From: Coniferiporia sulphurascens
Taxonomy: Eukaryota > Basidiomycota > Agaricomycetes > Hymenochaetales > Hymenochaetaceae
Length of the DNA stretch: 64,000 bases
Assembly: GCA_002794785.1 (NCBI GenBank)
Contig: NBBA01000017.1
Coordinates: 806,001 to 870,000, forward strand
Reading direction: 5' to 3'
Shown: positions 294 through 62,972 of the stretch, piece by piece
How positions within the stretch are numbered: position 1 is the stretch's first letter
How the letters are laid out: every line of letters starts with the position of its first letter
Made by a program: the position numbers and the translations under genes
The notes under the pieces: model-generated
The model's database searches: none
What the model was told of the DNA's origin: nothing
The model's input: only the letters and a program-made list of their open reading frames with translations

Positions 294-793
294 GTGTCTG
301 TGTTGGTAGGCTGAGTCAAAGCTCAGCCAGTAGCCCCCATAGGGACCGGCACGACAGAGGACCTGCGCCACCGCAGTAAGCTCCGAGCAGGGGTGGTCAA
401 CTGAGATAGTGACTAGCTTTCTCGGTTGTCTGGTGGGGGGCCCCGTCACTGCTAAGTACTTGTCAGCCAGAATTAAGAGTGCCCTTGCGGGACTCAAGCA
501 ACACGTGTACCTTCCTTGGGATATGCAGCCGACCAAAACTGCTCCTGCTGTCCTCTATGACATATGGGCACTATATTGGAACACTAGGGTAAGGTGTGCC
601 GCACTAGGAGGCCACCCTGGGTGAAGGTTGCGGCGCCATAGGCACTACTCCACCCATATGGAATGACCCCCCTACCCTACACATTCCCTCCCCAACCATA
701 GAGGTCCTGTAGAGTACCACTGCGCTTCTGGGAATCAACTTAAGCCCATAGTGGGAATTACCCCCACACGAACCGACAGAGGATTTAGTCCTC

Positions 794-831
<38 letters not shown>

Positions 832-1978
832 CTGCAGTATTACATAATTACAAGCTGCCCCCCCAAAGGGGGGCCCTAACTACATAACAACAGAGGTGCC
901 TGTCATTGTGCATCGCACAAAACTGGGTGGGGGCTCTGCTCCCTGAGGGGTGCTGAAGTGTGAAGAGCCCCTATTGGGATATAAGATGAACAAAAAGAAG
1001 GAGGGATACATATTGCTACGAACTGGTCAAATGGACGAAGGCAGGCCAAGTAAGAAGCTTAGAAGTGGTAAGGGGATGGCAAGAGCACCGGCCAAGACGT
1101 ATTCATGGGAATTCGAAAGGCAGGCTTCAAGACAGAGGAAAGGGAGGAGTCATACCTGATAGCTCCAAGAGGGCCGGGTCCGAGTCCTGGGTTCTGGGTC
1201 CGAGCATACAACGCATGTAATCCCTAAGGAGGTCCAGGTCCATGTCTTCGTCAGTGGGGTGGCCGTCCAGGTCCATCGCAGCAAATGCTAGCCTGATGGC
1301 GCCTGTGGCACGGTCGGAGAGGCGGTTTAGGTGTCCCGTTAGCTTAAGCCAGCGGTGCAAAACTGGGAGGCAGTGTTCGTCAGCCCACTCAGAGTGGTGG
1401 ACTGGGAGGGGGTCTCGAGGTGGCCAGACACGTCGTATCCACAAGTGGAAGGTGCTACAGCCGCCGAGGATGTGGGCGGTCGACTGTGCGGGCCAGGGTG
1501 GGTGGTTATGCCATCAGCAGTGCGAAATCAGGCCATGTCTGTGCCGGTAGGATGAGTAAAAACTCAGCCAGTAACCCCCATAGGGACTGGTGCAGCAGAG
1601 GACTTGCGCTACTATGGATAGCTCGCTGCGGGGGTGGTTGACTGAGTGCATGAGTAGCTTCTGGGGTCATCGTGATGGGAGGCCGTGTACCGCTAGGTAT
1701 TTGTCTGCGGTTGAGGCGAGGGGGTGGGCAAGCGAGAGAGTCCACTGGTCCATGAGGGTGCGGATGGCGACTTCTTTTAGTGCGGAGATAGAGGGCTTTA
1801 AGTCGGAGGGGGGAGCTCAGTTGCCAGTTTTGCTTCCGTGTCAGCCCATTCATTTCCGGGGATGTCCGAGTGACCGGGGCACCACATGAAGTGAACGGTG
1901 AGCTGGGGGTACGAGTCTAGCAGAGTTTCCACGCCCGCCTTCCATATGTGGAGGAGGTGGGCACCTGGGGCAGCAGTG

Positions 1979-4679
1979 CCCCGCCCATACTCCTCACGGA
2001 GCTCATGGGGGCACTGTCTGACACCTCCAACTTGTCGGCTCCGGGCCTCTCAGGGATCGGCTACTGCCCACTAAAATGGGTGGTAGATGCATACCCTGCC
2101 GAGATCCTTACCCTTTTCAACGACTGCCTACACATGGGGCACCACCCTAAGTGCTGGCGGGCGGCAAAAGTAGTAATGCTACGGAAGCCTAACAAGAAGG
2201 ACCCCTTCTCACCAAGATCTTATCAGCCCATCACCCTTGAGGAGACCCTAGGGAAACACCTCGAAAAGGTAATAGCTAACTGGCTCCAGTTCCTCGCTAA
2301 CACAAGGGATTGGCTGCCACCCAACCAGTACAGGGGGCGTCAGGGACACTCAGTCTACAACGCTGCCCAACACCTTTTACAGATTGTAGAGTGTGCCCAT
2401 GCAGAGGGCTGTGTATGTTCGGTCCTAGCAGTCGACATACAGGGGTTCTTCGACTCAGTACACCCACAGCTCCTCCACCGACAACTGCTGGACCTCCAGT
2501 GCCCGCCCGACATGGCAGACTGGTGTTTGTCCTTCATGATGGACTGGCAGGTCGCCATCGCTTTCAACGGCACCACCCTCCCAACCGCCCAGAAACCCGA
2601 CCTCGGCACCCCCCAGGGGTCACCAGTATCCCCTATCCTCTCAACCATATTCATGGGCATGGTCCTCCAGAAATTTCACCAAACCGGCACCACCGCCCTC
2701 GCGTATGTGGATGACCACCTCCTCATGTGCATCGGACCCAGCATGGCATCCAACTGCCAGCAACTGTCCAATGCCTATCACCAACCAACGCTCACTTTGG
2801 CGACATTGGTCTCAACATTGAGGCTGCCAAGACCAAGTGCCTACACTTCCACCCACCCCGGCGCTGATCACCAGCATACACCAACTGGGACACCGCCGGG
2901 GTTCAAGTCGACCCCACCACCCTCGTCTGACCCTCTATCCTGCTCCGATGGCTCGGGATCTGGTGGGACCCTGCCCTCACCTTCAAGGCCCATGTTGAGC
3001 GAATGTGTTCCAAAGGCCTCTCCACCCTCGCCGCCCTCCACATCCTCAGCAACACCGAACACAGCATTTCGGCCCTTCTCCTATGTTGCCTATATATCGC
3101 CTGTGTCCACTCGGTACTCACATGGGGCGTGCCGGTTTGGTACCATGGCCAGTGCCAAAAAACTTTAGTAAGCCACCTGCAGGCTGTGCAAAACACAGCA
3201 TGCAGATGGATCCTCAGCATCTACAAAGGCACCTCCCCTTTTTCCACAAACTTCCTTTGTTCCCTTCCCCCCCTTTCTTATTATTTTGAATATGCTAAGA
3301 CTCTCCATTCTCTTTGCCTATGGCGCACCCCGCACTCCATTGGTAGAAAACATTTTTATAAAACAGTAACTAACTGCCCCTTTTCCACTTCTCTGCAGGT
3401 CCGGGTCCCTCGGGTTCAACTGGTCCCTGCATACACTCATCCCCCGTGGATGGACCCTCTGGCATTTACAAATGGTCGAGTTTCGTTTGCCTCTCCTATC
3501 ACTCCGGTCAGCAAAGACACCTGTGAGGAATTCATGGAAGCCGCACCCTCCCTGAGCACCCTCCCCCACCTCCAGGTCTTCACTGATGGCTCCCGCATGG
3601 GCACGAAGTCTGGATCAGCAGTCTGCGCCATGCAGGGCATCACCCACCTCAAATCGCGCTGACTAGCCTCCCCCACTTGTGCCACTGCCACGGACATGGA
3701 AATTTTCTCCCTCACCTCCGCTCCGACATGGGCTGCACACCACCTCTGGGAACTACTGCCTGTCGCATCAGACATCTTCTTTTTGTCTGATTCGCTGACA
3801 GCCCTCCACCTTATCCATACACGGGCGCTGGCCCCAGGTGCCCATCTCCTTCACCAATGGAAGGCTGGGGTCCAGACCCTCTTGGACTCGTATCCGGATC
3901 TCTCCATTCACTTCGTCTGGTGCCCGGGTCACTCGGACATCCCCGGGAATGAATGGGCCAACAGTGAGGCCAAGTTTGCCACAAACCTACCCCCATCTTC
4001 CCTCACACCCTCCACCTCCGCACTGAAAGAGGCTGCCATTGACACTTTGATGGAACAATGGTCACTCTCACTCGCCCGCCCTCTAGCCTCGACTGCTGAC
4101 AAGTATCTTGCTGTCAATGGGGCCCCCTCCTGCCGACCCCATAAGCTATTAATGCACTCAGTCGACCACCCATGAAAAGAGCTCGCAGCGGTTGCCCAGA
4201 TCCTCTGTCGTGCCGGTCCCTACAGGGGTTACTGGCTGAGCTTCAACTCAGTCTACCGATGCAGACATGGTCTGATCTCACACTGCCGATGGCACAACCA
4301 CCCCCCCTGGCCTGCTCAATCCACCACCCATGTTCTGGGCAGCTGCCGTACTTTCCGGCCATGGATCCATAAGGTCTGGCCACCATGTGACCCCCTCCCG
4401 ACCCACCACACTGAGTGGGCCGACGAAAACCGCCTCCAGGCTCTGCATTGCTGGCTAAAGCTGACAGGACACATGACCCACCTCTCTGACCGCACCTCTG
4501 CTACCATCCGTTTGGCCTTCGCCATGATGGAGCTGGAGGGACACCCAACCAACAATGATATGGACCTGGACCTCCTCCAGGATTACATGAGTTGTATGCT
4601 TGGACCCCGTTCCCAGGACCCGGACCCGGCTCTCTTGGAGCTTTCAGGTACGCTTCCTCCTCTTCCCTCTACTCTGTGA
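1979..4679 (+). pseudogene. LINE ORF2 (RT, RNase H, C-terminus), broken
   Basis: RT domain up to YVDDHLLMCIG (about 2703-2735) is open. The catalytic YVDD is intact and fingers KPNKKDPFSPRSYQPI and FFDSVHP are clear. A small deletion near 2790 shifts the frame. RNase H follows from about 3570 (FTDGSRMGTKSGS, then EIFSL, then SDSLTALHL, then PGNEWANSEAK). The conserved C-terminus ends LPPLPSTL-stop at 4679. TGA replaces CGA at 3660-3662 and 4173-4175. No endonuclease, because of 5' truncation. Confidence 0.87.
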
Positions 4680-4829
4680 CCACCTTTCAGACTCTCCCTT
4701 GTATGTCCTGGCTGGCGCTCTCACCCTCCCTTTCCAATTCTAAGTTACCCCCATTACCTGCCCTCATCCGCTTGGTTTGGTTGTAGTGATATGTATTCCT
4801 CTCTCCTTCTCCTCCTCTTCTTCTAAATA

Positions 4830-4871
4830 GGGGCCCTTCCCACCTTGGCACCCTTTGGGGAGCAGGGCCCC
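4830..4871 (+). other. LINE 3' UTR hairpin 1 (covarying stem)
   Basis: GGGGCCCT at 4830-4837 pairs with AGGGCCCC at 4864-4871. The equivalent stem in other copies is GGGGCTCT/AGAGCCCC (19354-19361/19388-19395), GGGACCC/GGGTCCC (23379-23385/23414-23420) and GGGCGCGT/ACGCGCCC (43140-43147/43173-43180). Both arms change together, so the paired RNA form is probably conserved. A role in recognition of the RNA 3' end by the RT is inferred from other LINEs with 3' stem-loops. Confidence 0.75.
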
Positions 4872-4927
4872 CGCCCAGTTTTGTGCGTTGTGCGATGACG
4901 GGCACCTCTGTTGTTATGTAGTTAGGG

Positions 4928-4944
4928 CCCCCCCTTCAGGGGGG
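4928..4944 (+). other. LINE 3' UTR hairpin 2 (CCCCCC-TTCR-GGGGGG)
   Basis: A short perfect stem with a TTCA loop (TTCG in many other copies, the UUCG tetraloop class). It lies about 40 nt before the tail. Nearly every 3' end in the window has it. Subfamily C has a different but still self-complementary version (GGCCCC-TCT-GGGGCC near 43237). Confidence 0.7.
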
Positions 4945-6173
4945 CAGCTTGTAATTAGGTAATACTGCAGGAATAATTTTTAAAAAAAAAAAAAAAAAAA
5001 CCTGGGGCAGCAGCCCAGGTGCGGAGGAGGTGTAGTGCAGTCAGTGAATCAGACAAGAAGAAGACATCTGATGCAACATGCAGTTGGGCGGGAAGGCAGC
5101 GCACGGCCCAGCCTGGTGCCATAGCAAGGGAGAATTCCTCGGCATCCATGGCGGTGGTGCATGTGGGGGACTCCAGTCGACGTAACCAGAGGCGGGTAGG
5201 GCCTAGCATTGCGCAAATGGAGGAGCCTGACTTGTCGTCGATGTGTGATCCATCTGTGAATACTTGGACATGGGGGGTGGAGCCTAGGGCTCGGGCGGCA
5301 CGCACGAATTGTTTGCAGGTGTCGGCACTGACCGGAGTGGGTGGAGTGGTGAAGTGGACTCAGCCATTGGTGAAGGCCAGGGGGTCCGTCCATGGGGGAT
5401 GCGTGTATGCAGGGACTTGCTGAACCCAGGGGGCTCGGACCTGCAGAGAAAGGGAAAAAGGTCTGTTAGCTATGTTTTTAAATAATTTGCAGCCAATAGA
5501 GTGGGGGGTGCGCCAAAGGCGCAGAGCATGGGTAGTCTTTATATATTCAAAATAGAAAGAGAGAGGGGGAATGGAACAAAGGAAATTGGTGGAGTGGGGG
5601 GAGGCGCCCTTAAAGATGCCTAGGGTCCAGTGACAGGCCGTATTTTGTACGGTCTGAAGGCAGTTTACCAGTGTTTTTTGGCAGCGGCCATGGAACCAGA
5701 CTGGTGCTCCCCAGGAGAGGACAGAGCGGATGCAGGAGGTATAGAGGCGGCAAAGGAGGAGGGCCGAGATGCTGCATTGGGTATTGCCCAGGATGCAGAG
5801 GGTGGCGAGTGTAGAGAGCCCCTTAGAGCGCATGCGCTCCATGTGGGGCTTGAAGGAGAGGCCCGGATCCCACCATATCCCCAGCCACTGAAGTGGGATT
5901 GAGGGGCGGATCAGGGTGTTTGGGTTGACCTGTATACCGGTGGTGTCCCAGCTGTCATAGCCGGTGCGTTGCCGCAGTGGATGGAAGTGGAGGCACTCTG
6001 TCTTCACAGCTTCAATGTTGAGACCGATGGTGCTGAAGAGGGTGTCTAGTTGTTGGTATGCGCAGGCGAGGGCGCGGCAGTTGGATGCCACTGAGGGACC
6101 TACGCAGATTAGTAGATGGTCATCGACATATGCCAGAGCTGTGGTGCCGGCTTGGTGGAAGCACCAGAGGACC

Positions 6174-6426
6174 TATTAAATAAATATAATGAACGATATA
6201 ATTATAGTACGTGGTCATATGAACAACCATCTTACTAAGTGAACGATAACGCAATGATAACGCCATACGATAGGAGCTATGATAGTTATAGTATACATAG
6301 CTCACAGTAGATGTATATAAGGAGAGCTGGTCTCTACCATGAAATACATCGGTTTATGCTGATAACCCACCTTGTCTGAACTTCACCACTGCACCTCATC
6401 ATCTACCACAACGTGCGTAGGTTTTA
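6174..6426. mobile_element. Unclassified 253-bp AT-rich insertion
   Basis: It interrupts the RT of the minus-strand LINE. AGAGGACC precedes it (6166-6173) and follows it (6427-6434), an 8-bp apparent target duplication (5-7 bp cannot be excluded). It is much more AT-rich than its surroundings, has no coding capacity, and contains TATATAAGGAG near 6313. It has no TG...CA ends and only a weak terminal similarity (TATTAAA / TTTTA). It could be a small non-autonomous DNA transposon or an unusual solo LTR. Only one copy is present here. Confidence 0.6.
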
Positions 6427-7751
6427 AGAGGACCACACCTGTGAATATCATCAACAAGATGGGGGAGACTGGTGATCCTTGTGGGGTGCCCAGGTCGGGT
6501 TTTGGGGTGGTGGGGAGGGTGGTGCCATCGAAGGCTATGGCAACCTGCCGATCCATCATGAAAGACAAGCACCAGTTGGCCATGTTGGGGGCACAACCGA
6601 GGTCTAACAATTGTCAGTGGAGGAGATGGGGGTGCACTGAGTCGAAGAAGCCCTGAATGTCGACTGCAAGGACCGAACAGATGAGGCCCTCGGAGTGGGC
6701 GCATTCCGCAATCTGTAGAAGGTGTTGGGCGGCGTCGTAGACCGAATGGCCTTGACACCCCCCATACTGGTTAGGTGGCAACCAGTCCTGTGTGTTCATG
6801 AGGTACTGGAGCCGGTTAGCTATTATCTTTTCGAGGAGTTTCCCTAAGGTCTCCTTGAGGGTTATGGGCCGGTATGAGCGCAGTGAGAATGGGTCTTTCT
6901 TGTTAGGCTTCCATAGCATCACCACCTTTGCCACCCACCAGCACTCAGGGTGGTGCCCTTGGTGCAGACAGTCGTTGAAAAGTGAGAGAATCTCATCAGG
7001 GTAGGCTTCGACCACCCATTTCAGGGGTCGGTAGCCTATTCCTGAGAGGCCCAGAGCTGACAAGTTAGAGGTGTCGGACAGTGCCCCTGTAAGCTCTGTG
7101 AGGAGTATGGGTGGGGCAGCTGGGTGGGGTGGTGGCGGCAGGGTGTTGGCCGCTGCCAGGGGGATTTAGTCCTCTGGAGCCACTGAGGGGAACTCTCCCA
7201 CAGCACTACAGCCCAAGACACTACACTTCAGCATGCTGGGATGCCGACACACACTCCATGCAGGCCCTTTCCCATGCCCTGGCATGTGCTTCAGAAACAG
7301 CCATTACAGCCAGAATACTCAGGAACCAAGGTCATGGGACAAGCGCCCAGTCAACCCCCGGCCCCCGCTTCTGGATCCATGGTCGTACCAAGATCTCCGT
7401 CTCACATACCCGACCCTGGTGGCAAAGCTGTCCCAGGGAGTAGAGGATACTAACCACCTCAAGGGGGTCCAACCCACCCAAGAGGCCCATAGTGCCCTGT
7501 CGCTTTTCAGCATCGGGTGGTTCTTACTGCCATGCCATGTGTTATGAGCCCCCTATCTCCTTTTAGCACAAAGTGCTGTCATCAGAGACCCTTTCGGGAA
7601 TTTGGGGGGGCAGTTTTTGATTTGTCATGCCAGGGACAATGTGGGCCCTGAGGTACCCAGGAGGGCATTGCTCAGCACCCAAAGGTGTGATCTGGGTTGC
7701 CCCAAACCAAGATCTCCCAACCAAAGTCACCCACTGCGAGGCAGGGGGTTT

Positions 7752-10700
7752 TTTTTTTTTTTTTTTTAAAAAAAATTATTCCTGCAGTATTACATAATTA
7801 CAAGCTGCCCCCCTGAAGGGGGGGCCCTAACTACATAACAACAGAGGCGCCCATCATTGCACATCGCACAAAACTGGGTGGGGGCCCTGCTCCCCGAAGG
7901 GTGCCAAGGTGGGAAGGGTCCCTATTAGTAGATGAGAAGCCAGAGGGAGGAATACATATTGCTACGACGAAACCAGGCGGGTGAGGGCAGGTAAAGGGGG
8001 TAGCTTAGAATTGGAAAGGGGGGGCGAGAGCGCTGGCCAGGACATACGCAGGAGAGTCCGAAAGGCAATCACTGAGTAGAGGGAAAGGGGGGAAGCATAC
8101 CTGAAAGCTCCAAGAGAGCCGGGTCCGGGTCCTGGGGTCGGGGTCCAAGCATACAACTCATGTATCCCCTGAGGAGGTCCAAGTCCATATCTTCGTTGGT
8201 GGGGTGCCCCTCCAAATCCATTGCTGCAAAGGCCAGGCGAATGGTGGCAGAGGTGCGATCGGAGAGGCGGTTTAAGTGCCCGGTCATTTTCAGCCAGCGG
8301 CACAGAACCTGGAGATGGTTTTCGTCGGCCCACTCAGTGTGGTGGGTTGGGAGTGGGTCGCGAGTAGGCCAGACCCTTCGGATCCATGGTCGGAACGTAC
8401 GACACCCGCCCAGGACATGGGCGGTGGATTGGGTGGGCCAGGGGGGGTGGTTGTGCCATCTGCAGTGCGAGATCAGGCCGTGCCTGCGCCGGTAGACTGA
8501 GTCGAAGCTCAGCCAGTAGCCCCCGTAGGGACCGGCACGACAGAGGACCTGGGCAACTGCTGAGAGCTCCTGGTGGGGATGGTCGACCAACTGGTTGAGT
8601 AGCTTCCATGGTCGGCAGGATGGGGTGCCGTTGACAGCCAAGTACTTGTCAGCTGTCGAGGCCAGGGGACGGGCAAGAGAGAGAGACCACCATTCCATTA
8701 GGGTGTTGATGGTGGCTTCCTTCAGAGCGGAGGTGGAGGGGGCGAGGGAGGACAGGGGGAGGTTCATTGCGATCTTGGCCTCATGGTCGGCCCATTCATT
8801 CCCTGGGATGTTGGAGTGACCCGGGCACCAGATGAAATGTACGGAAAGTTCCGGATACAAGTCCAAGAGAGTCTGGACCCCAGCCTTCCATTGATGAAGG
8901 AGATGGGCGCCTGGGACTGGTGCCCATGTGTGTATAAGGTGTAGTGCCATCAGCGAATCTGACAGAAAGAAGATGTCAGATGCAACAGGCAGTAATTCCC
9001 GGAGGTGGTGTGCAGCCCATGTAAGCGTGGAGGTGAGGGAGAAAATCTCCGTGTCTGTTGCTGTGGCACATGTGGGGGAGGCAAGTCGGCGAGATTTTAG
9101 GCAGGTGAGGCCCATCATGGCGCAGACGGTGGAACCAGACTTCGTCCCCATGTGCGAGCCATCGGTGAAGACCTGGAGATGGGGGAGGGTGCTCAGGGAG
9201 TGTGCAGCCTCCACAAATTGTTCGCGGGTGTCCTTGCTAACTGGTGTGATAGGAGAGGCAAACGATACTCTGCCGTTCGTAAATGCCAGAGGGTCCATCC
9301 ACGGGGGATGAGTGTATGCAGGGACCTGTTGAACCCGAGGGACCCGGACCTGCAGAGAAGTGGAAAAGGGACGGTTAGCTATGGTTTTGTAATAATGTTT
9401 TCTACTGATGGAGTGAGGAGTGCGCCAAAGGTGCAGGGAGTGAAGGGTCTTTGCATATTCGAGATAAAAAGAAAGAGGGGGAAGGGAACAAAGGAAATTT
9501 GTGGAGAATGGAGAGGCGCCTTTATAGACGCCGAGGATCCATCTGCATGCTGTGTTTTGCACAGCCTGCAGGCGGCTTACTAAGGTTTTTTGGCACTGCC
9601 CGTGATACCAGACCGGTGCCCCCCATGTGAGGACAGAGCGGACACAGGCGATGTATAGGCGATGTAGGAGGAGGGCCGAGATGCCGCATTCGGTGTTGCC
9701 AAGGATGCGGAGGGCAGCAAGGGTGGAGAGGCCTTTGGAGCACATTCGCTCCACGTGGGCCTTGAAGGTGAGGGCAGGGTCCCACCAAATCCCCAGCCAG
9801 CGGAGGGGGATCGAGGGTCGGATGAGCGTGGTGGGGTCGACCTGAACCCTGGCTGAGTCCCAGTTGGTGTATGCTGCGGAACGGCACCGGGGTGGGTGGA
9901 AGTGTAGACACTCTGTCTTGGCAGCCTCGATGTTGAGACCGATGTCGCCAAAGAGAGCATCGAGTTGGTGGTAGGCGGCGGCAAGTTGCTGGCAGTTGGA
10001 TGCCATGCTGGGGCCAACGCACACAAGGAGGTGATCGTCGACATATGCAAGGGCAGTGGTGCCGGTTTGGTGAAAGTTCCGGAGGACCACGCCCGCAAAT
10101 ATGGTGGAGAGGATAGGGGATACCAGCGATCCCTGGGGGGTGCCAAGGTCAGGTTTCTGGGCAGTTGGGAGGGTGGTGCCATTGAAAGCGATGGCGACTT
10201 GCCGATCCGTCATGAAGGACAGGCACCAGTCCACCGTGTTGGGCGGGCACTGGAGGTCCAGCAGTTGTCAGTGGAGGAGTTGCGGGTGCACTGAGTCGAA
10301 GAAGCCCTGTATGTCGACCACGAGGACCGAGCATACCAGGCCCTCTGCGTGGGCGCATTCTGCAATCTGTAGGAGGTGTTGGGCTGCGTCATAGACTGAG
10401 TGTCCCTGACGCCCCCCATATTGGTTAGGGGGCAGCCAGTCCCTCATGTTTGCGAGGAACTGGAGCCTGTTAGCTATGATCTTTTCGAGGAGTTTCCCTA
10501 GGGTCTCCTTGAGGGTGATGGGCTGATAAGATCTCAGCAAAAACGGGTCCTTCTTGTTAGGCTTCCGCAGCATTACCACCTTTGCCACCCACCAGCACTT
10601 GGGGTGGTGCCCCATGCACAGGCAGTCATTGAAAAGGGTAAGTATCTCTTCCGGGTATGCGTCTACCACCCATTTGAGTGGGCAATAGCCGATCCCTGAG

Positions 10701-10776
10701 AGGCCTGGAGCCGACAAGTTGGAGGTGTTGGCCAGTGCCCCCATAAGCTCCATGAGGAGTATAGGCGGGGCAGCTG
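7752..10776 (-). mobile_element. LINE, 5'-truncated, minus strand
   Basis: A LINE of about 3.0 kb with its tail at 7752 and its truncated 5' end at 10776. The duplication GAGGCAGGGGGTTT at 7738-7751 and 10777-10790 lies within the 1.29-kb unit of the old chimera. Its 3' UTR keeps both hairpins. The upstream stem arm has one G-to-A change that is not compensated. Confidence 0.9.
8069..10776 (-). pseudogene. LINE ORF2 (RT, RNase H), nearly open
   Basis: Read 10776 to 8069. The 161-codon part (RT fingers to SVHPQLLH) ends in a TGA at 10268-10270. The following 721 codons are open to the natural stop at 8069. This part holds GTPQGSLVSPI, YVDDHLLVCVG (intact catalytic Asp pair), thumb, RNase H (FTDGSHMGTKSGS, DTEIFSL, SDSLMALHL, PGNEWADHEAK) and the His/Cys C-terminus. 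The single TGA comes from CGA in HRQ, and the same codon is hit in the copies at 6614 and 44108. It is one stop from a complete RT-RNase H, but has no endonuclease. Confidence 0.88.
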
Positions 10777-11227
10777 GAGGCAGGGGGTTTCCCCCCCCCC
10801 TGTGAGGACATTAACGTTGTGTCCCCCCCCGCTGAGCCCACATACAATGCAGGCCCAACAAGAACGCCACCCCGAGAGAGCAGCACAGACGCCAGAAGGA
10901 TACAGGCTCACCGAGAATCCGACCAGTAGCAACGTTTTCGATGGGTTGCCTAGACCGCCGGTGAGCTCCGTGCCCATTCCCCACCACATTACGGCGACTG
11001 ACGACCAACCCCAGTGCACTAGGGTGAGTTGGAACCTTCTCTTGTATGATGCCCAGTCCCAGAGAGTCCAGACAAGGTCGGGTAGCTGCGACTTCCCCCC
11101 ACCAACCCCAGTTGCAAAACCAAGATGGTGGTGGTAAGAGGACAAGAAGGATGACTACTCATTTTAGTGGCACCTTCTTGACCAGTAACCACCACCATTG
11201 ACTAGTGCAGGCAGCTAAAACTCCCCC

Positions 11228-15411: not shown

Positions 15412-16059
15412 CATCCTTCTTGTCCTCTTACCACCACCATCTCTGGTTTTCACTGGGGGTCGTCTGGGGGTTCATCGCAGCAACCCATGCTCTGGTCTGG
15501 TATTCTACTGGGTCGACATGGGAGAAGGCTTCCGACTGCGCACCTTTTGTAAAGGAGCGCTGCTTGCTGGTCACCGAGGCACTGTAGCGGCATCGTCTGA
15601 TGGCGCAAAAGGGGTTCACACCCGCCAGGGGGCAAGCAACCCGTCATTAACGTTGCAATGGGGGGGGATGGCTCAGTGAGTACCAAGATCCTCTCTCACG
15701 TCTGCTGTGCTCTCTCGGGGCATGGTGCTCGGCTGGTCTGCCTCTCGGCGGTGCAAGGGGCACATGCCTGCCAGTCGGGGGGGGACATGACGTTAACGTC
15801 CCCACACCCATGCAGGGGGGGGTAACCCTCTGCCCTTCAGCAGTTGGCTTCAGTCGGGAGACCTCGGGTTCAGGGAAACTCGGATCTAACCTTCGGGTTG
15901 TGCCCTTGGGCATGGGGCCGCATTGTCCTTGGCATGACAAACCATAAAAACTGCTGCCCCAAATCCTGAAAGGGTCTCTGATGATGTCACTAGTTGATAT
16001 AAGGAGATAGGGGCTTCTTAACACATGGCGTTGCAGTAAGAACCAGCCGATGCGAAAGC

Positions 16060-16618
16060 TGTTACAATTTTCCTTTACTTTCCCTTAATGCGCTGACTCA
16101 CTTCCTCTTCGTCATCATCAGTCAGCGCAACTCCCCCATTTCTCTACCTTACTCATCCTTATTCGCCTTACACCATAAGACACCATGATAACACCTTATT
16201 GCACCATCATGACGTGCTTTGCTTACTGATCACCGCACTTGTATTACCAAGGCATTCCTTGAGTTTCCATGACCCTCCATAGTCTGGTAAACACACCTAA
16301 CCAAGTCGCTACAGTAACAAACACATAGAGTAGTATATAAGCATGTAACTTCAGTAGCACAAGCCCTAAGCTTGTGCTCTTTGTTCATACAAGCCCATTA
16401 TCTGCTACCACCAGTCTACTGTGTGCCACTTGGCCATTAGTCGCTTCGTCGTAACCTGACTCCGCTAAGAAGCATACCACATCCACATCGCCAATCAGGA
16501 AGCCCCACGACGATCCCCCCCTCGACTTACGACATCTAAGAAGCCCCGTTGCTGTATCATCAGTCATGACGATCAGGAAGCCCCGACGTCAATCACTGCA
16601 TAACCGTTGAGCTTAACA
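16060..16618 (+). mobile_element. Solo LTR (559 bp)
   Basis: It starts TGTTACAATTTTCC and ends GAGCTTAACA, giving TGTTA...TAACA inverted ends. It is flanked by the 5-bp duplication AAAGC (16055-16059 and 16619-16623). Inside are TATATAAGCATG and then the repeat AAGCCCTAAGCTTGTGC, typical of a promoter and RNA start. No internal gag/pol is present. A 5-bp duplication and TG...CA ends fit a Ty3/gypsy or Ty1/copia LTR. It entered the 1.29-kb unit after the chimera formed, because the other unit copies are uninterrupted here. Confidence 0.93.
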
Positions 16619-17262
16619 AAAGCGACAGGCCACCATGGGCCTTTTGGGGGGGTGTGGCTGGCCTTAGCCCTTTTGAGGGTAGGCATTGGTGCCCCCCGAG
16701 AGGTGGTTAGTCAAGCGGACTCCCTGGCAACCTCGGAAGAGATAGGCCGGGGTCCAAGCCTCTGGTGACACATCAACTCCGGTACACCGCGGATCCAGAA
16801 GCGGGCCTTGTGCCTGAGTATTCCCCTTCGGGGTTCTGAAGCATGTGCCAGGGAACAGGAAACTCCGGGGGGGCCTAGGAAACCCCTCCACTATGGAGTG
16901 AACTGTAGCAGTGGGGGATAGTTCCCTCCACTGGCTCCAGAGCACTAAATCTAGCATGGGTGTGTGTAGGAGTAAGTCCTATTGCGTGCTTAAGTTGATT
17001 CCCAGAAACGAGCAGCACTCTACAAGGGTAAGTGGGGTAAGGGGGGGAATGTGTAGGGTAGGGGGGGCACCCAATGGGTGGGGTAGTGCCTATGGCGCTG
17101 TGACCCTCACTCGGAATGTCTCCCTGGCGTGGCATGCCCTTCCCAAATCCAGCGCACCGTAGAGGACAGCATGTCGGGTATAAGTCCTACCGGTCAGGCA
17201 TCTATGTCACAAGGAAGGTGCATGCGTAGTGGGGCCCCGCAAGGGTGCCCTTTAATTCTGGC

Positions 17263-17460
17263 CTCTCTGACTGCACCTCTGCCGCCATCTGCCTGGCTTT
17301 TGCTGTGATGGAGCTGGAGGGGCACCCAACCGACGAAGATATGGACTTGGACCTCCTCAGGGAATACATGAGTCGTATGCTTGGACCCCATACCCAGGAC
17401 CTGGACCCGGCTCTCTTGGAGCTTTCAGGTATGCTTCCTCCCTTTTCCTCTGATCTATGA
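17263..17460 (+). pseudogene. LINE ORF2 C-terminal remnant
   Basis: The last 65 codons of ORF2 (LSDCTSAAICLAFAVMELEG, DEDMDLDLLREYMSRMLGP, LLELSGMLPPFSSDL-stop). It is joined directly to the 3' end of the 1.29-kb unit. The bases GCCTCTCT are shared between donor and LINE at the join, a possible microhomology. It is not a functional coding region. Confidence 0.85.
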
Positions 17461-18019
17461 CTGCCTTTCGGACTCCCCCACGAATGTCCCGGCTGGCGCT
17501 CTCGCCATCCCTTCCCAATTCTAAGCTACCCCCTTTGCCTGATGTCGTCCGTTTGGTCTGGCTGTAGTGATACGTATTCCTCTCTCCTTCTGTGTACTTA
17601 CCAATAGGGGCCCTTCCCACTCTGGCTCCCTCTGGGGAGCAGGGCCCCCGCCCAGGTGTGTTGCGCAATGACAGGTGCCTCCGTTGTTATGTAGTTAGGG
17701 CCCCCCCTCTGGGGGGGCAGCTTGTAATTATGTAATACTGCAGGAATAATTTAAAAAAAATAATTTAAAAAAAAGAAGGATGACTACTGACCCATCCCCA
17801 CCCACTGTCATTTTGATTCAGGAACCCCCCTGGTACCAAATTGGCCTCCAGCCATCCCTTATTGACCCCACTGGAATGCCGGTCCTCAACGTACCCTCCC
17901 TCCCCGGGTACATAGCTGTCCTACCCCCAGCCACTCGGCCATGGGTGGTCACTTATGTTTCCTGCGCCATCCCCACCACATCATGGTCTGTCCTTGGGGC
18001 CGCCTCATCCGGCACCGAT

Positions 18020-31100: not shown

Positions 31101-33725
31101 TAAAAATTTCGCTTAGCTGCCCGGATGCCCCACTTGAATGTGCGGCGGGCTGCTGACCGTTGGAGGGGGGTGGGGGCCGCTGAAATCACCTGGAGGAGCG
31201 TTTTGCATGTCAGGGTCCACCAGGGGACCTCGGTTTTGGACGGCTTGTTGGTGTGGGTGAAGGGGGCGAGGGCAGTGATCATGGAGTCGACTACTGCCCG
31301 CGCTTTGGCGTTGAGGGTGAGGGTGTCATCCACTTGTTTTAAGAAGGTGGCTTCAAGTAGCGGAAAGGCGATGTCGGTCCACTCCTCCTTGTCAGCTGGT
31401 AGTAGCCGGCGGGTTTTGATGGTGGGAGGTGGGGGCCGAGACAGCAAGGACCAACGTAGGATAACATGGTCGGACAAAGCGGAGGCAGTTGAAATGCCCG
31501 AGTCTAGAATTGTGTCGGGGTTTATCGCGGGGGGGGACCAGATCATGTCAATTGGGCACTGCCGACAATTGTTGATGGGCCTAGAGTCTGAGTCTGGGAG
31601 GTGAGCTGGCGCAAGGCCGTGCTCCCAGAAGAAGTCATCGAGGGGTTGGGCCCTCAAGTCCTCCTGCCGTGTGGCAAGGAGTTCAGACCATGAGTGGTGG
31701 CAATGGTTGAAGTCGCCAGCCACCAATAGAGTAGAGGCCAATGCCGGTGGGAGTGTAAACAGGAACGACTCACCAGGATAGAGGGGGGTGGCAGTGGTAT
31801 GATCTGGCATGTGCATGCCATAGTAGTTGCAGAGGCGGATCATTGGTTGTGAATGGATTTTGATGGTGAGGATGTTGGTGCCGAAGGATGCGGCACCTAA
31901 GACTGACCAGGCGGTTGTTGGGATGGTTCGGGATACGTACATCACTACCCTTGGCTGGATGGCTGGGGGGAGAATGGCTGTGTATCCTGGGAGGGATGGG
32001 ACATTGAATACCGGCATCATCCTTCTTGTCCTCTTACCACCACCATCTCTGGTTTTCACCAGGGGTCGTCTGGGGGTTCGTCACAGCAACCTGTGTACTG
32101 GTCTGGTATTCTACTGGGTCGACATGAGAGAAGGCTTCCAACTACACACCTTTTATAAAGGAGTGTTGCTCACTGGTTGCCGAGGCGCTGTAGTGGTGTC
32201 GTCTGATGGCACGAAAGGGGCTCACACCTGCCAGGGGGCAGGCAACCCGTCATTAACATTGCAATGGGGGGGGATGGCTCAGTGAGTACCAAGATCCTTC
32301 TTCACGTCTGCCATGCTCTCTTGGGGCATGGTGCTCGGCTGGTCCGCCTTTCGGCAGTGCAAGGGGCGCACGCCTGCCAGTAGGGGGGGGACATGATGTT
32401 AACGTCCCCAAACCCGCATGGGGGGGGGGTAACCCTCTGCCCTTCAGTGGTTGGCTTCGGTCGGGAGACCTCGGGTTCAGGGAAACTCGGATCTGACCTT
32501 CGGGTCGGGACTTAAAAATCCTGGGGCCGCGTTGTCCTTGGCATGACAAACCATAAAAACAGCCGCCCCAAATCCCAAAAGGGTCTCTGATGACGGCACT
32601 AGTTGCTATAAGGAGATAGGGGCTTCATAACACATGGCGTTGCGGTAAGAACCAGCCGACGTGAAAGCGACAGGCCACCATGGGCCTCTTGGGGAGACAA
32701 CGCTGGGGCTCACCTAGCAGTCGCGGGAAGTTCCTGGTAGCTGGCCCTCTCTCATCAAAGTGGGAAGGAAGCTGGTACCCCTCGAGAGGTGGTTAGTCAG
32801 AGCGGACTCCCTGGCGGCTGTAACAAGCACTGGGGTCCAAGCAACGGCAACACGTCAACTCCGATACATTGCGGATCCAGAAGCAGGCCTTGTGCCTGAG
32901 TATTCCCCCTCGGGGCTCTGAAGCGTGTGCTGGGGAACAGGAAACTCCGGGGGGGCCTAGGAAACCCTCCCACTATGGAGCGAGCTGTAGCGGTGGGGGA
33001 TAGTTCCCTCCACTGGCTCCAGAGCACTAAATCTGGTGTGGGTGCGCGTAGGAGTAAGTCCTATTGCGTGCTTAAGTTGATTCCCAGAAACTAGCGGCGC
33101 TCTACAATGGAAAGCAGGGTAAGGGGGGGAATGTGTAGGGTAGGGGGGGCACCCAATGGGTGGGGTAGTGCCTATGGCGCCACGACCCTCACTCGGAATG
33201 CCTCCTGGCGTGGCATGCCCTTCCCAATCCAGCATGTCATAGAGGACAGCGTGTCGGGGATAAGTCCTTTGGTCAGGCATCTATGTCACGAGGAAGGTGT
33301 ACATGTAGTGGGGCCCCACAAGGGCGCTCTTTAATTCTGGCTCTCTCGAGTTGTTTCTTACTAAATAGGGGCTCTCCACACTTCGGCACCCTTCAGGGAG
33401 CAGAGCCCCCACCCAGTTTTGTGCGATGCGCAATGACGGGCACCTCCGTTGTTATGTAGTTAGGGCCCCCCCTTCGGGGGGGCAGCTTGTAATTATGTAA
33501 TACTGCAGGAATAATTTAAAAAAAAAAAAAAAAAAAGACATTGAATACCGGCATGCCAGCTGGGTCAGTGAGTGAGGGTTGGAGGCTGATTTGATACCAG
33601 GGCGGTTCCTGGATCAAAATAATGGTGGGTGGGGACGGGTCAGTGGTGAGGATCGGAATAAGGGAATGGACTGTGGCTAGTGAGCAGGCGGCATTCCACT
33701 GAAGAATAGAGATGTCTCTATTCAT
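28196..33725 (-). pseudogene. LINE ORF2 (endonuclease, RT, RNase H), few breaks
   Basis: It starts MNRDISILQWN at 33725, overlapping the ORF1 stop as ATGA. The chimera at 32018-33536 interrupts it after about 57 codons. From 32017 to about 29410 it is open: LLVAGDFN, CPIDMIW, LSDHVILRW, KPNKKDPFSPCSYQPI, NQYGGRQGHSVYDAAQ, FFDSVHP, GTPQGSPVSPI and intact YVDDHLLICVG. One lost base near 29410 shifts the frame. RNase H (FTDGSRIDNKSGS, DAKEFSL) is open to a CGA-type TGA at 28497-28499 (WIRR). The C-terminus is further disrupted, so the end coordinate is approximate. It is among the least decayed endonuclease-RT copies here. Confidence 0.85.
32018..33536 (+). mobile_element. Chimeric element with 18-bp target duplication
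   Basis: The unit at 32018-33341 (1324 bp, CATCCTTCTTGTCC to TTTAATTCTGGC) is followed by LINE 3' UTR only (from TCTCTCGAG, then AATAGGGGCTCTCC..., hairpins) and poly(A). GACATTGAATACCGGCAT flanks it exactly at 32000-32017 and 33537-33554, inside a LINE endonuclease. This proves that unit and LINE 3' end inserted together in one event. The LINE part is only ~195 bp, so very little 3' LINE sequence was enough for mobilisation. Confidence 0.92.
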
Positions 33726-35758: not shown

Positions 35759-36031
35759 GGGGGAGTTTTAGCTACCCACACTAGTCGATGGTGGTGGTTA
35801 CTGGTCAAGAAGGATGAGTAATATGTATTCCTCCCTCTTTTGTTTTTGCCTCATACTAATAGGGGCCCTTCACACTTCGGCACCCTTCGGGGAGCAGGGC
35901 CCCCGCCCAGTTTTGTGCATTGCACAATGACGGGCACCTCTGTTGTTATGTAGTTAGGGCCCCCCCTTCGGGGGGGCAGCTTGTAATTATGTAATACTGC
36001 AGGAATAATTTAAAAAAAAAAAAAAAAAAAA

Positions 36032-39177: not shown

Positions 39178-39235
39178 CATCCTTCTTGACCAGTAACCAC
39201 CACCATCGACTAGTGCAGGCAGCTAAAACTCCCCC
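39178..39235 (+). promoter_or_regulatory. LINE 5' UTR / probable internal promoter tip
   Basis: A 58-nt leader from CATCCTTCTTG to the ORF1 ATG at 39236. The same tip, at the same distance from ATG, is seen on the minus strand ending at 293, 35816, 57640 and 62972. The 1.29-kb unit starts with almost the same ~29 nt (CATCCTTCTTG, then four or five differences, then ACCACCACCAT). An element with so short a leader probably carries start-site signals at +1 onward, as in other LINEs with internal Pol II promoters. That is inference. Confidence 0.6.
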
Positions 39236-44662: not shown

Positions 44663-46605
44663 CCATCCTTCTTGTCCTCTTACCACCACCATCTCTGGTT
44701 TTCACTGGGGGTCATTTGGGGGTTCATCACAGCAACCCATGCTCTGGTCTGGTATTCTACTGGGTCGACATGAGAGAAGGTTCTCGACTGCACACCTTTT
44801 GTAAAGGAGTGCTGCTCACTGGTTGCCAAGGCGCTGTAGCGGTGTCGTCTGATGGCATGAAAGGGGTTCACACCTGCCAGGGGGCAAGCAACCCATCGTT
44901 AACGTTGCATTGGGGGGGGATGGCTCAGTGAGTACCAAGATCCTCTCTCACGTCTGCCGTGCTCTCTCGGGGCATGGTGCTCGGCTGGTCTGCCTCTCGG
45001 CGGTGCAAGGGGCGCATGCCTGCCAGTCGGGGGGGGACATGACGTTAATGTCCCCACACCCACGCAGGGGGGGGTAACCCTCTGCCCTTCAGTGGTCGGC
45101 TTTGGTCGGGAGACCTCAGGTTTGGGGAAACTCGGATCTAACCTTCGGGTTGTGTCCTTGGGCATGGGGCTGCGTTGTCCTTGGCATGACAAACCATAAA
45201 AACGGCCGCCCCAAATCCCGAAAGGGTCTCTGATGATGTCACTAGTTGATATAAGGAGATAGGGGCTTCATAACACATGGCATTGTGGTAAGAACCAGCC
45301 GACGCGAAAGCGACAGGCCACCATGGGCCTTTTGGGGGGGTGTGGCTGGCCTTAGCCCTTTTGAGGGCAGGCATTGGTGCCCCCCGAGAGGTGGTTAGTC
45401 AAGCGGACTCCCTGGCAGCCTCAGAGGAGATAGGCCGGGGTCCAAGCCTCTGGTGACACGTCAACTCCGGTATGCTGCAGATCCAGAAGCGGGCCTTGTG
45501 CCCAAGTATTCCCCTTCAGGGCTCTGAAGTGTGTGCTGGGGAACAGGAAACTCCGGGGGGGCCTAGGAAACCCCTCCACTATGGAGCGAACTGTAGCAGT
45601 GGGGGATAGTTCCCTCCACTGGCTCCAGAGCACTAAATCTAGCATGGGTGTGTGTAGGAGTAAGTCCTATTGCATGCTTAAGTTGATTCCCAGAAACAAG
45701 CGGCACTCTACAGTGGTAAGCAGGGTAAGGGGGGAATGTGTAGGGTAGGGGGGGCACCCAATGGGTGGGGTAGTGCCTACGGCGCCACGACCCCCACTCG
45801 GAATGTCTCCCTGGCACAGCATGCCCTTCCCAATCCAGTGCACCATAGAGGACAGTGTGTCGGGTATAAGTCCTACCGGTCAGGCATCTATGTCATGAGG
45901 AAGGTGCACGCATAGTGGGGCCCTGCAAGGGCGCCCTTTAATTCTGGCACTTTCCGACCCAGGATCCGCAAGGTCTGGCCCCCCCTGTGACCCACTTCCG
46001 ACCCACCACGCCGAGTGGGCCGATGAAAACCACCTCCAGGTTTTGTGCTGCTGGCTTAAGCTGACAGGGCACCTCAATCGCCTCTCTGACTGCACCTCAG
46101 CTGCCATCCGCCTAGCTTTCACCGCGATGGAACTTGGGGGGCACCTGACCGACGAAGATATGGACTTGGACCTCCTCCGGGAATACATGAGTCATATGCT
46201 TGGACCCCGTACTCAGGACCCGGACCCGGCCCAATTGGAGCTCTCAGGTGTGCTTCCTCCCTTTTCCTCTGATCTATGACTGCCTTTCGGACTCTCCTGT
46301 GTATGTCCTGGCTGGCGCTCTTGCCATCCCTTTCCAATTCTAAGCTACCCCCATTTGGCCTGATGTTGTCCGTTTGGCTTGGCTGTAGTGACACGTATTC
46401 CTTCCTCTTTCCAATTACCTACTAATAGGGGCCCTCCCCACTCTGGCTCCCCCTGGGGAGCAGGGCCCCCACCCAGTTTCGTGCATTGTGCAATGATGGG
46501 TGCCTCTGTTGTTACGTAGTTAGGGCCCCCCCTTCAGGGGGGCAGTTTGTAACTAAGTAATACTGCAGGAATAATTTAAAATTTAAAATTTAAATTTAAA
46601 AAAAA
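44663..46605 (+). mobile_element. Chimeric element with imperfect target duplication
   Basis: The unit at 44664-45948 (1285 bp) joins LINE ORF2 C-terminus at ACTTTCCGACCC. A LINE 3' UTR, hairpins and a T/A-mixed tail follow. The flanks CCCTCACCGCAC (44651-44662) and CCCTTGCCGCAC (46606-46617) match at 10 of 12 bases, inside an RT thumb. The join is at the same LINE position as in the chimera at 59175. Confidence 0.87.
45949..46279 (+). pseudogene. LINE ORF2 C-terminal remnant
   Basis: It starts at TFRPRIRKVW-like sequence. A shift from an extra C near 45980 precedes the open stretch LKLTGHLNRLSDCTSAAIRL to VLPPFSSDL-stop at 46279. It is the LINE portion of the chimera and is not functional. 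Confidence 0.82.
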
Positions 46606-50919: not shown

Positions 50920-51478
50920 TGTTACAATTTTCCTTTACTTCCCTTTACTGCGCTGACTCATTTCATCTTCCTCATCATCAGTCAGCGCAACTCCCCCATT
51001 TCTCTTCCTTACTCATCCTTATTTCACCTTGCGCCATAAGACGCCATGATGACACCTTATTGCACCATCATGACGTGCTTTGCTTACTGATCACCGTACT
51101 TGTATTACCAAGGCCTTCCTTGAGTTTCCATGACCTTCTATAGTCTGGTAAACACACCTAACCAAGTCGCTACAGTAACAAACACATAGAGTAGCATATA
51201 AGCATGTAACTTCAGTAGCACAAGCCCTAAGCTTGTGCTCTTTGTTCATACAAGCCCATTATCTGCTACCACCAGTCTACTGTGTGCCGCTGTGCCACTA
51301 GTCGCTTCGTCGTAACCCAACTCCGCTCAGAAGCCTACCGCATCCACATCGTCAATCAGGAAGCCCCTCGATGATCATCTTCGACTTATGACATCTAGGA
51401 AGCCCCGTTGTCATCACCATCAGTTCCAATGATCAGGAAGCCCTGACGTCAATCACCATGTAACCGTTGAGCTTAACA
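50920..51478 (+). mobile_element. Solo LTR (559 bp)
   Basis: The same LTR as at 16060-16618 and of exactly the same length: TGTTACAATTTTCC to GAGCTTAACA. Flanks GTGAG (50915-50919) and GCGAG (51479-51483) form a 5-bp duplication with one C/T change. It sits in the 3' UTR of the full-length LINE at 50638-57640, so it is younger than that LINE. Confidence 0.92.
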
Positions 51479-51527: not shown

Positions 51528-54500
51528 TTACTCGAGCAGGAAGGGGGGGAGCGTACCTGAAAGCTCCAAAAGGGCTGGGTCCGAGTCCAGGGTTTGTGGT
51601 CCGAGCATACGACGCATGTGTTCCTGTAGGAGGTCCAAGTCCATATCCTCGTCGGTGGGGTGTCCATCCAGGTCCATCGCTGCAAAAGACAGTCGGATGG
51701 CGCCTGCGGCGCGGTCAGAGAGGCAGTTAAGGTGCCCTGTTAGCTTAAGCCAGTGGCACAAAACCAGGAGGCAGTTTTCGTCAGCCCACTCTGAGTGGTG
51801 GACTGGAAGAGGGTCCCGAGGTGGCCAAACACATCGTATCCACGGATGGAAGGTGCTACAGCCACCTAAGATATGGGCAGTTGACTGTGCTGGCCAGGGG
51901 GGGTGGTTGTGCCATCTGCAGTGTGAGATAAGGCCATGCCTGTGGCGGTAGGCCGAGTCGAAACTCAGCCAGTACCCCCCATAGGGTCCAGCATGGCAGA
52001 GGACCTGTGCAACTGTGGATAGCTCGCTGCATGGGTGGTCGACCAAATGCATGAGGAGCCTTCGAGGTTGGCGTGATGGTAGGCCATGGACTGCTAGATA
52101 TTTATCGGCAGTTGAGGCAAGGGGGCGGGCTAGTGAGAGCGTCCATTGTTCCATGAGGGTGCAGATGGCAACTTCCTTTAAGGCGGAGGTGGAAGGTTTA
52201 AGGTCGGATGGGGGGAGCTCGGTTGCCAGCTTTGCCTCTGTGTCAGCCCAATCATTTCCAGGGATGTCCGAGTGTCTGGGACACCATGCGAAATGGATGG
52301 TGAGCTGGGGGTATGAATCCAGCAGAGTCTCCACACCCGCTTTCCAAATGTGGAGGAGGTGGGTGCCAGGGGCGGCAGCCCAAGTTCGGAAAAGGTGTAG
52401 AGCAGTCAGCAAATCGGATAGAAAGAAGATATCCGATGCGACATGCAGTTGCACTGGGAGATGGTGTGCTACCCAGCCTGGGGCCGTGGCGAGTGAGAAC
52501 TCCTCGGCATCCATGGCTGTGGCACAGGTGGGGGATTCCAGTTGGCGTGACCAGAGGTGGGTGTTGCCCAGCATTGCACAGATGGCCGAGCCCGACTTAT
52601 TGTCTATGCGGGAGCCATCGGTGAAGACCTGGACATGGGGGGTGGAGCCTAGTTGGTGTGCCGCCATTACAAATGATTTTCGTGTGTCGGCGCTGACCGG
52701 GGTGATGGGGGTGGTGAACTGGACTCGGCCCTTCGTGAAAGCCAGTGGGTCCGTCCATGGGGGATGCATGTATGCAGGGACCTGTTGAACCTGGGGGGCT
52801 CGGACCTGCAGAGAAAGGGAGAAGGGTCTGTTAGCTACGTTTTTAAATAGTTTATGGCCAATAGAGTGAGGGGTGCGCCAGAGGCGAAGGGAATGGGTAG
52901 TCTTTATATACTCGAAATAGAAAGAGAGAGGGGGAATGGAGCAAAGAAAATTAGTGGAGTGGGGGGAGGCGCCTTTGAAGATGCCCAAGATCCAACGGCA
53001 GGCCGTGTTTTGCACAGCCTGGAGGCAGTTTACCAGGGTTTTTTGGCATCGGCCATGGTACCATACCAGTGCTCCCCATGACAGGATGGAACGAATGCAG
53101 GAGGTGTATAGGCGGCGGAGTAGTAGGGCTGATATGCTGCGTTGGGTGTTGCCCAGGATGCGGAGTGTGGCGAGGGTGGAGAGCCCCTTGGAGCGCATTT
53201 GCTCAACATGGAGCTTAAAGGAGAGGCCCGGGTCCCACCATATCCCTAGCCATCTTAGTGGGATTGAGGGGCGGATAAGGGTATTAGGGTCGACCTGTAC
53301 CCCAGCGGTGTCCCAGCCATTGTAGCCGATGCATCGCCAAGGGGGGTGAAAATGGAGACACTCTGTCTTGTCAGCTTCAATGTTGAGGCCGATGGTGCCG
53401 AAAAGTGTGTCGAGTTGTTGGTAGGCGCATGCTAGTTCGCGGCAGTTGGATACTACTGAAGGTCCTACACAAATAAGTAAGTGGTTGTCAACGTAAGCTA
53501 GGGCGGTGGTGCCGGCTTGGTGAAAGCGCCGGAGGACCACTCCTGTGAATATTGTTGACAGGATGGGGGAGACTGGCGATCCCTGGGGAGTGCTGATGTC
53601 GGGTTTCGGGGTGGTTGGAAGGGTGGTGCCGTCGAAGGCAATGGCTACCTGCCGGTTCGTCATGAAGGATAGGCACCAGTTGGCCATGTCAGGGGCACAA
53701 CCGAGGTCCAGCAGTTGTCGGTGGAGGAGCTGTGGGTGCACCGAGTCGAAGAAGCCCTGTATGTCGACCGCAAGGACCGAGCACACACAGCCCTCTGAGT
53801 GGGCACGTTCCGCGATCTGTAAAAGGTGTTGGGCGGCATCGTAGACCGAATGGCCTTGACGTCCCCCATATTGGTTGGGTGGCAGCCAGTCCCTCATGTT
53901 CGCAAGGTATTGGAGCCTGTTAGTGATGACTTTTTCGAGGAGTTTCCCTAGGGTCTCCTCGAGGGTGATGGGCCGGTATGATCTTGGAGAGAAAGGATCC
54001 TTCTTGTTTGGCTTCCAGAGCATTACCACCTTTGCCACCTGCCAGCATTCGGGGTGGTGCCCCAAATGTAGACAGTCATTGAAAAGCATAAGAATCTCAT
54101 CGGGGTAGGCATCCACCACCCATTTCAGGGGGCAGTAACCTATTCCCGAGAGGCCCGGTGCCAACAAGTTGGATGTGTCAGACAGTGCCCCCATAAGCTC
54201 TGAAAGGAGTATTGGCGGGGCAGCTGGTTGGGGTGGTGGCGGTGGGGTGTTGGCCGCTGCCTGGGGGGGGGGGGCATGAAGAAAGTTTTGCGAAAGAGCT
54301 CACCTTTCTCCTCGTCTGTTTGGGTGAAGGTGCCATCTCGCCGCTTTAGCGATGGGATGGGAGTGGGTCGGTTGCCTAGACCGCGCTTGGCCCAGTTCCA
54401 GATGTTGGAGGCATCTGCTTCCGATGCCTGGTCGGCGTAGAACTGCCGTTTGGCCATCCTAACGCCTCTTTTAAAGGCTCTTCTTGCTGATGCATGCTGG

Positions 54501-62914: not shown

Positions 62915-62972
62915 GGGGGAGTTTTAGCTGCCTGCACTAGTTGATGGTGGTGGTTACTGATCAAGAAGGATG
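61118..62972 (-). mobile_element. LINE subfamily A 5' part, minus strand
   Basis: 5' tip AAGAAGGATG ending at 62972, a 58-nt leader, and ORF1 from 62914 down to the zinc knuckles, where the chimera tail at 61117 interrupts it. The rest of ORF1 and all of ORF2 are missing from the left side. It abuts subfamily B-like ORF1 sequence on its right. Confidence 0.85.

Follow-up and report, generated by a model that had tools for sequence, protein, structure and literature searches.

How does one and the same piece of DNA come to be joined, by one fixed end, to the 3' ends of LINE retrotransposons that begin at different positions? The question is raised by the window analyzed here, a stretch of 64,000 nucleotides (C17:806001-870000) from the 39.35-Mb, 31-contig genome of Coniferiporia sulphurascens, in which an initial annotation had described five copies of a 1.29-kb unit fused to LINE sequence and had proposed that the LINE reverse transcriptase (RT), having started on the LINE tail, jumped to the 3' end of a second, full-length RNA. 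The starts given for the five copies (15412, 32018, 44664 and 59175 on the forward strand, 11153 on the reverse strand) were all exact, and the LINE sequence was indeed joined in four regions, namely ADKYLAV (LINE position about 5533), LSDCTSA (5918), the 3' UTR (6237) and TFRPW (5786, twice) (Table 1). The supposed common end was found in the four forward-strand copies, which end in TTTAATTCTGG followed by C, but the fifth (466, reverse strand) ends in CTTAATTCTGG and belongs to another subfamily. The C after TTTAATTCTGG need not be part of the unit, since LINE relatives carry it in 39 of the 43 independent joins having a C. The sharing of GCCTCTCT or GCTGACAA at some joins had been overestimated, the overlap being about one or two bases (G or GC). 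At 15412 the start and the join stood, but a 559-bp insert extends the expected 1.29 kb of the unit to 1.85 kb; a direct repeat was looked for around this chimera and none was found. Relatives of this solo-LTR-like insert (16060-16618, 0.56 kb) lie at 50920-51478 and 58106-58666 in the window, and the units of loci L013 and L028 also hold inserts close to it in size.

Table 1. Unit copies, joined LINE parts and related features of the window (positions counted from its first nucleotide).
Feature	Position	Strand	Remarks
Unit (type I/II) split by solo-LTR-like insert	15412-17262	+	Spans 1.85 kb
Solo-LTR-like insert TGTTA...TAACA	16060-16618	.	559 bp; 5-bp duplication AAAGC
LINE 3' part fused to 15412 unit, LSDCTSA region	17263-17774	+	A-rich tail at end
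Target duplication (18 bp) GACATTGAATACCGGCAT, left copy	32000-32017	+	Right copy 33537-33554; repeat exact
Unit (type II), locus L018	32018-33341	+	Flanked by exact 18-bp repeat
LINE 3' UTR part and tail	33342-33536	+	Joined to 32018 unit
Unit (type I), reference copy	44664-45948	+	
LINE 3' part, TFRPW region to tail	45949-46604	+	End approximate
Unit (type I), join identical to 44664 copy	59175-60459	+	
LINE 3' part and tail after 59175 unit	60460-61117	+	End approximate
Unit of type IVa, split by nested LINE sequence (e.g., 7775-10787)	466-11153	-	5' end 11153, 3' end 466
LINE part fused to type IVa unit, ADKYLAV region	294-465	-	LINE 5' end next, at 293
LINE's own 5' end	57611-57640	-	Near-identical to unit 5' end
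Further LINE 5' ends	62943-62972, 35787-35816, 264-293, 39178-39207	-, -, -, +	
Near-complete LINE (ORF1, ORF2)	51528-57640	-	LINE coordinate reference

Pattern counts over the whole genome, which miss decayed copies, gave 254 unit 5' ends and 292 LINE 5' ends (at most three mismatches each) and 923 LINE tails (at most two mismatches), the unit 5' ends thus amounting to about 28% of the LINE tails. Unit 3' ends of all subfamilies numbered 185, with 70 of types I/II (0 or 1 mismatch) and 115 of other types (exact matches). The 22-nt pattern of the type I/II 3' end, when allowed up to three mismatches, gave 71 matches, of which 70 had no mismatch or a single one, whereas the same pattern written backwards matched 2, which argues that these ends do not arise by chance; one three-mismatch match (C11:651231) lacked unit homology and was discarded as fortuitous. 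The LINE carries ORF1 and ORF2, and the nearest named relatives of ORF2 are proteins of the basidiomycete Coniferiporia weirii (57-82% identity over the aligned part), whose Pfam accessions we take to denote endonuclease, RT and RNase H domains; the element presumably belongs to a Tad-like clade. Among the matches listed, LINE and unit copies crowd in one block of about 0.2-0.5 Mb per large contig examined (1.31-1.59 of 4.98 Mb in C1, 1.49-1.73 of 3.02 Mb in C2, and 0.62-0.92 Mb in C17), and the centromeres of some fungi show comparable crowding of elements into one block.

The sequence following the unit was read at 107 of the 185 3' ends, comprising all 70 of types I/II and 37 of the 115 others (4 of type III, 5 of IVa, 26 of IVb and 2 of V); further type IVa and V copies were listed, with flanks outside these 107. 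In 105 of them (70/70 for types I/II, 35/37 for the others) the unit is directly fused to a LINE on the same strand. The remaining two are L104, where a nested insertion follows after a few bases, and L092, which meets an inner piece of another unit. In L092 a type IVb end is joined, from the unit 3' end at 1362 onward, to an inner type II piece, as if an earlier chimera RNA had served as first template. The search for a source locus suggested by the initial annotation covered the 3' ends read (70/70 of types I/II and 37/115 of the others), and a LINE-free unit was found at none of them. Leaving aside L077 (insert near the join) and L092 (unit-unit join), 85 joins were examined, in all of which LINE relatives start no more than 4 nt from the join, and collapsing those with like flanks left 58 independent joins; the claim of one donor end with many same-strand LINE joins is borne out across the genome. 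With L095 as the one unplaced, 57 of the 58 were located on the LINE, at positions 1670-6248, of which 1 falls in ORF1, 2 in the endonuclease, 5 in the RT, 36 between the end of the RT and RNase H, and 13 in the 3' UTR, the domain borders being set roughly.

The LSDCTSA site is used by units of types I/II and IVa, and other sites also recur across unit types; their recurrence with different unit types indicates separate events at hot spots. The closest LINE reference of the 70 type I/II joins is R1 in 30, R2/R6 in 38 and R3 in 2, and the LINE partners of these units belong to at least two subfamilies. On C11, well away from that contig's main block, a type V unit with a LINE part closest to R4 (39140) is also a chimera (L098, C11:719300-721100). 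Joins held in common occur as well: the four type III copies read have one common join, and the members of the pairs L001/L002 and L025/L026 have a join in common and are nearest unit neighbors, so that these chimeras were probably recopied whole. Three unit pairs with common joins (L056/L064, L057/L065 and L058/L066) extend across contigs C14 and C26, which suggests a duplicated or allelic stretch.

The LINE bases at each join were read as the majority base of up to five other LINE copies, with exclusion of relatives that were at least 99% identical or resembled another unit end. Over the 58 joins, C was the majority base at -3 in 74% and at -2 in 79%, G or A at -1 in 81%, and C at 0 in 69%, which gives CC(G/A)|C as the switch-site motif in the LINE. 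CCR (R being G or A) stands at the switch in 26 of the 58 joins (14 CCG and 12 CCA, the latter perhaps partly decayed CCG), against a background of 5.8% in the LINE references (p about 2e-17). A later set of 18 type IVb joins, retrieved once the motif was already known (20 less L104, which was not clear, and L107, which repeats the flank of L106), had CCR in 11 (p about 5e-10); two of its members, L106 and L109, reuse sites of the first set, both without strict CCR. At plain LINE truncations, whose edges come from local alignments and are possibly off by a few bases, CCR was found in 0 of 64 usable cases. As this join motif was absent from the plain truncations, random RT fall-off does not fully account for the joins.

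Further, the LINE base opposite the last G of the unit is G in 50% of joins vs. 23% in a shifted-join control. The C's of CCR sit upstream of the join and are absent from the chimera, and the motif is independent of the third-last base of the unit (U or A). Pairing of the last three unit bases (UGG) with CCR was considered, and its third base is unsupported: IVb units end in AGG, and their 25 joins with a LINE base (one, L104, being not clear) include 12 CCR and 4 CCT. All unit types end in GG, hence they offer no contrast for a GG-CC pairing. Splicing was rejected as well, an AG acceptor upstream of the join being present in 0/58 cases if the unit ends in GG and in 1/58 if it ends in GGC.

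Insertion of unit and LINE as a single event is borne out. Among 36 testable copies, that is, those with the unit 5' end and the LINE tail both in the fetched stretch, a direct repeat scored at 14-20 bp (at most two mismatches) brackets unit plus LINE in 15, while by the scoring rule used a repeat of at least 11 bp is absent in 21; shuffled left/right pairs yielded one of at least 11 bp in 3 of 347. In L029/L071, a minus-strand chimera nested in a unit duplicates 16 nt of it (unit positions 1-1008, then 993 onward). A real minority of copies leaves the unit at inner points, and at least four of these have LINE sequence no more than about 12 nt away: L074, stopping about 20 nt before the unit end, L078 near position 790, L082 at 628, with the target repeated over 11 nt, and L091 near 398. 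L081 runs from unit position 737 directly into the 5' end of a LINE, possibly a nested insertion. Twenty loci (L078-L097) were chosen because they show a unit 5' end but lack a 3' end of type I/II; 9 of these close with the fixed 3' end of a different type, 3 close with an inner end and 5 are interrupted by opposite-strand LINE, the remaining three being L081, plus L086 and L090 without clear class.

As judged from its sequence, the unit is probably the copy of a structured RNA, about 1.28 kb long and non-coding, whose two ends are both defined. Most copies read are full-length with fixed 5' and 3' ends, some being cut short at the 5' side. Six type representatives share an almost unchanged first 32 nt, patches of strong conservation in between and a common end, GCAAGGGCG(C/T)(C/T)CTT...GG or close to it, and their indels do not come in threes. 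RNAalifold, compared with column shuffles that do not preserve dinucleotides, gave z < -2 in 14 of 18 windows of 160 columns (best, -8.3). Of 227 predicted pairs, 54 showed changes in both partners and no more than three misfits, vs. a shuffle mean of 17 and maximum of 28 (n = 100), a control biased toward structure, the alignment being the one to which the fold had been fitted. None of the 4227 models of Rfam 15 reached its gathering score in the window, the best match in the unit (E = 1.7) lying below the cut-off, and a search of viral contigs returned nothing. Telomerase RNA and a group I intron were dropped as candidate identities, no template or matches being found. The unit ends in ...GG without a LINE tail of its own, the tail being that of the joined LINE part, and it does not show the 3' end mimicking a LINE tail that marks a SINE.

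The single second RNA of the initial annotation has given way to about six diverged subfamilies, whose 5' end resembles that of the LINE: full-length LINEs start with CATCCTTCTTGACCAGTAACCACCACCATC and units with CATCCTTCTTGTCCTCTTACCACCACCATC, 26 of 30 bases being alike at the same place, and this match may mark a common transcription start. Median non-CpG divergence is 3.7% within type I, 8.4% in II, 1.4% in III, 1.7% in IVb and 2.0% in V-Vb, with 3.7% for one IVa pair, whereas the medians between the subfamilies range from 11 to 41%. Types I and II are separated by length alone, type II being mixed, and some I-II pairs are accordingly only 2% apart. Many units have a same-type neighbor at 0.5-4% non-CpG divergence, and many members of type II have one at 1-4%. 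This deep divergence between but low divergence within types indicates that several donors were active over roughly the same period. Most of the recent changes that separate copies are CpG-type transitions, of the sort that methylation-linked decay produces, and CpG-type differences per pair have medians of about 70-110 within types and about 100-140 between them; L058 and L066 differ at 0 non-CpG and 33 CpG-type positions.

These features bear on the nature of the unit, which could be a single host housekeeping RNA gene accidentally caught by the LINE, as WEIRD was taken to be. The patchwork conservation and the paired changes suggest a structured RNA and would fit such a gene, and WEIRD is described as non-coding, expressed and no transposable element (PMC2104539). 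Nevertheless, about six subfamilies lie 11-41% apart with same-type neighbors at 0.5-4%, several sources having been active together, the unit begins with 30 nt that match the start of the LINE, and a LINE-free copy was found at 0 of the 107 3' ends read; we therefore consider a host gene rather unlikely. The unit resembles a mobile RNA family more than a single housekeeping gene. Tentatively, and with some reserve, it may be regarded as a selfish RNA replicator that would use a LINE-like 5' end for transcription, offer a hairpin and a ...GG 3' end to the LINE enzyme working at CC(G/A)|C, and acquire a new tail at most insertions. The joining step might be performed or guided by the unit RNA itself.

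Regarding the formation of the chimeras, we think it probable that the LINE RT, on reaching CC(G/A)|C in the LINE RNA, passes to the unit RNA and copies it from its 3' to its 5' end. The enzyme would start on the LINE tail, which is observed at the 3' end of the chimeras, with direct repeats in part of the copies; it would depart from the LINE RNA at the CC(G/A)|C sites, where the motif is observed, and would resume at the ...GG 3' end of the unit RNA, the end that is fixed in most copies, to copy this RNA as far as its 5' end. The unit RNA would probably be transcribed from inserted copies, since its initial 30 nt correspond to the LINE's own start, a likely promoter site, and some finished chimeras would be recopied whole, as the one join of the four type III copies suggests. 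The template switching put forward initially agrees with the donor end, the scattered joins and the single insertion, but had not foreseen a motif at the joins, a donor that is a diverged family, or inner ends. Against an RT jump stand the inner-end copies, which slightly lower our confidence in it, the 21 of 36 testable copies without a repeat of at least 11 bp, and the fact that none of the 3' ends read is a LINE-free source; moreover, the C's of CCR, lying upstream of the join and missing from the chimera, are hard to explain by a simple jump.

Such features would fit a model in which RNA joining comes first: LINE RNA, cleaved at CC(G/A)|C, receives the 3' end of the unit RNA by ligation or transfer, and the resulting chimeric RNA is copied by the LINE machinery. 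We regard this as the less likely alternative. For the U6/LINE-1 chimeras, a 2019 study reportedly proposed ligation by RtcB. Prior joining is consistent with a motif that is found at 0 of 64 plain truncations and includes bases missing from the product, and with unit ends that are exact and without poly(A); for U6/LINE-1, both ligation and template switching are still under consideration (PMC13174262). On the other hand, the G or A opposite the last G of the unit in 81% of the 58 joins fits a one-base overlap in an RT jump too, and exact ends together with such a G overlap fit an RT jump and prior RNA joining alike. The case named at the outset as refuting, in which the unit is an ordinary 5' segment of a longer LINE and the joins are internal deletions or splicing, is highly improbable, since apart from the common first 30 nt (26/30 alike) the LINEs have their own 5' end (292 places) with ORF1 close behind, 0 of the 57 placed fixed-end joins lie at the LINE start, AG acceptors are lacking (0/58 or 1/58), and deletions are not expected to pair a single exact donor end with dozens of different partners.

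Among known systems, trypanosomatids have non-autonomous retroposons such as NARTc, a non-coding element in which the initial tens of nucleotides are common to it and its LINE partner, the autonomous L1Tc. Retroposons of the NARTc type have a fixed 3' end of their own, unlike the unit, whose 3' tail is taken from the LINE at variable points. The parallel drawn at first to MINE (WEIRD-MGL) of Magnaporthe holds, with a full-length 5' unit, a truncated same-strand LINE, scattered joins and repeats. MINE of Magnaporthe grisea combines a 1.1-kb full-length non-coding RNA (WEIRD) with a 5'-truncated LINE (MGL); 33 chimeras with 28 join sites and a switch motif GCC*A/U are described there, and no pairing between the two templates was found (PMC2104539). 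In both, the partners lie on the same strand, direct repeats occur, the joins occupy many sites, among them shared hot spots, and the switch motif is rich in C and G; a LINE-free donor copy was found in neither, here among the 107 3' ends read. They differ in scale (33 chimeras vs. about 254 unit 5' ends here), in the donor, which has about six subfamilies and a 5' end common with the LINE, unlike MINE as described, in the motif, CC(G/A)|C here vs. GCC*A/U, the latter not being encountered, and in the host, a basidiomycete vs. an ascomycete. By analogy of architecture, the unit chimeras are the MINE kind of element. Mammalian chimeras of U6, 5S, U3 and other small RNAs with LINE-1, for which 253 insertions of known types are catalogued (PMC13174262), are likewise composed of a full-length structured RNA at the 5' side and a truncated LINE at the 3' side, on the sense strand and with target duplications; their donors as described are known RNAs, whereas here one donor family accounts for a similar number, 254 unit 5' ends in 39 Mb. 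Among the open-licence papers searched, no title described chimeras of this sort in Hymenochaetales.

LINE chimeras have so far mostly been studied as accidents with abundant host RNAs. The many events found here, with one donor family in one compact genome, provide a site rule, CC(G/A)|C, and its contrast with ordinary truncations, along with a donor diversifying like a mobile element. Two questions thereby become testable: at which stage, RNA or cDNA, the joining takes place, and which of the two, host gene or LINE parasite, a WEIRD-like RNA is. The MINE kind of chimera is now present in a basidiomycete, at a larger scale, and our results suggest an RNA that spreads by being picked up midway through LINE copying.
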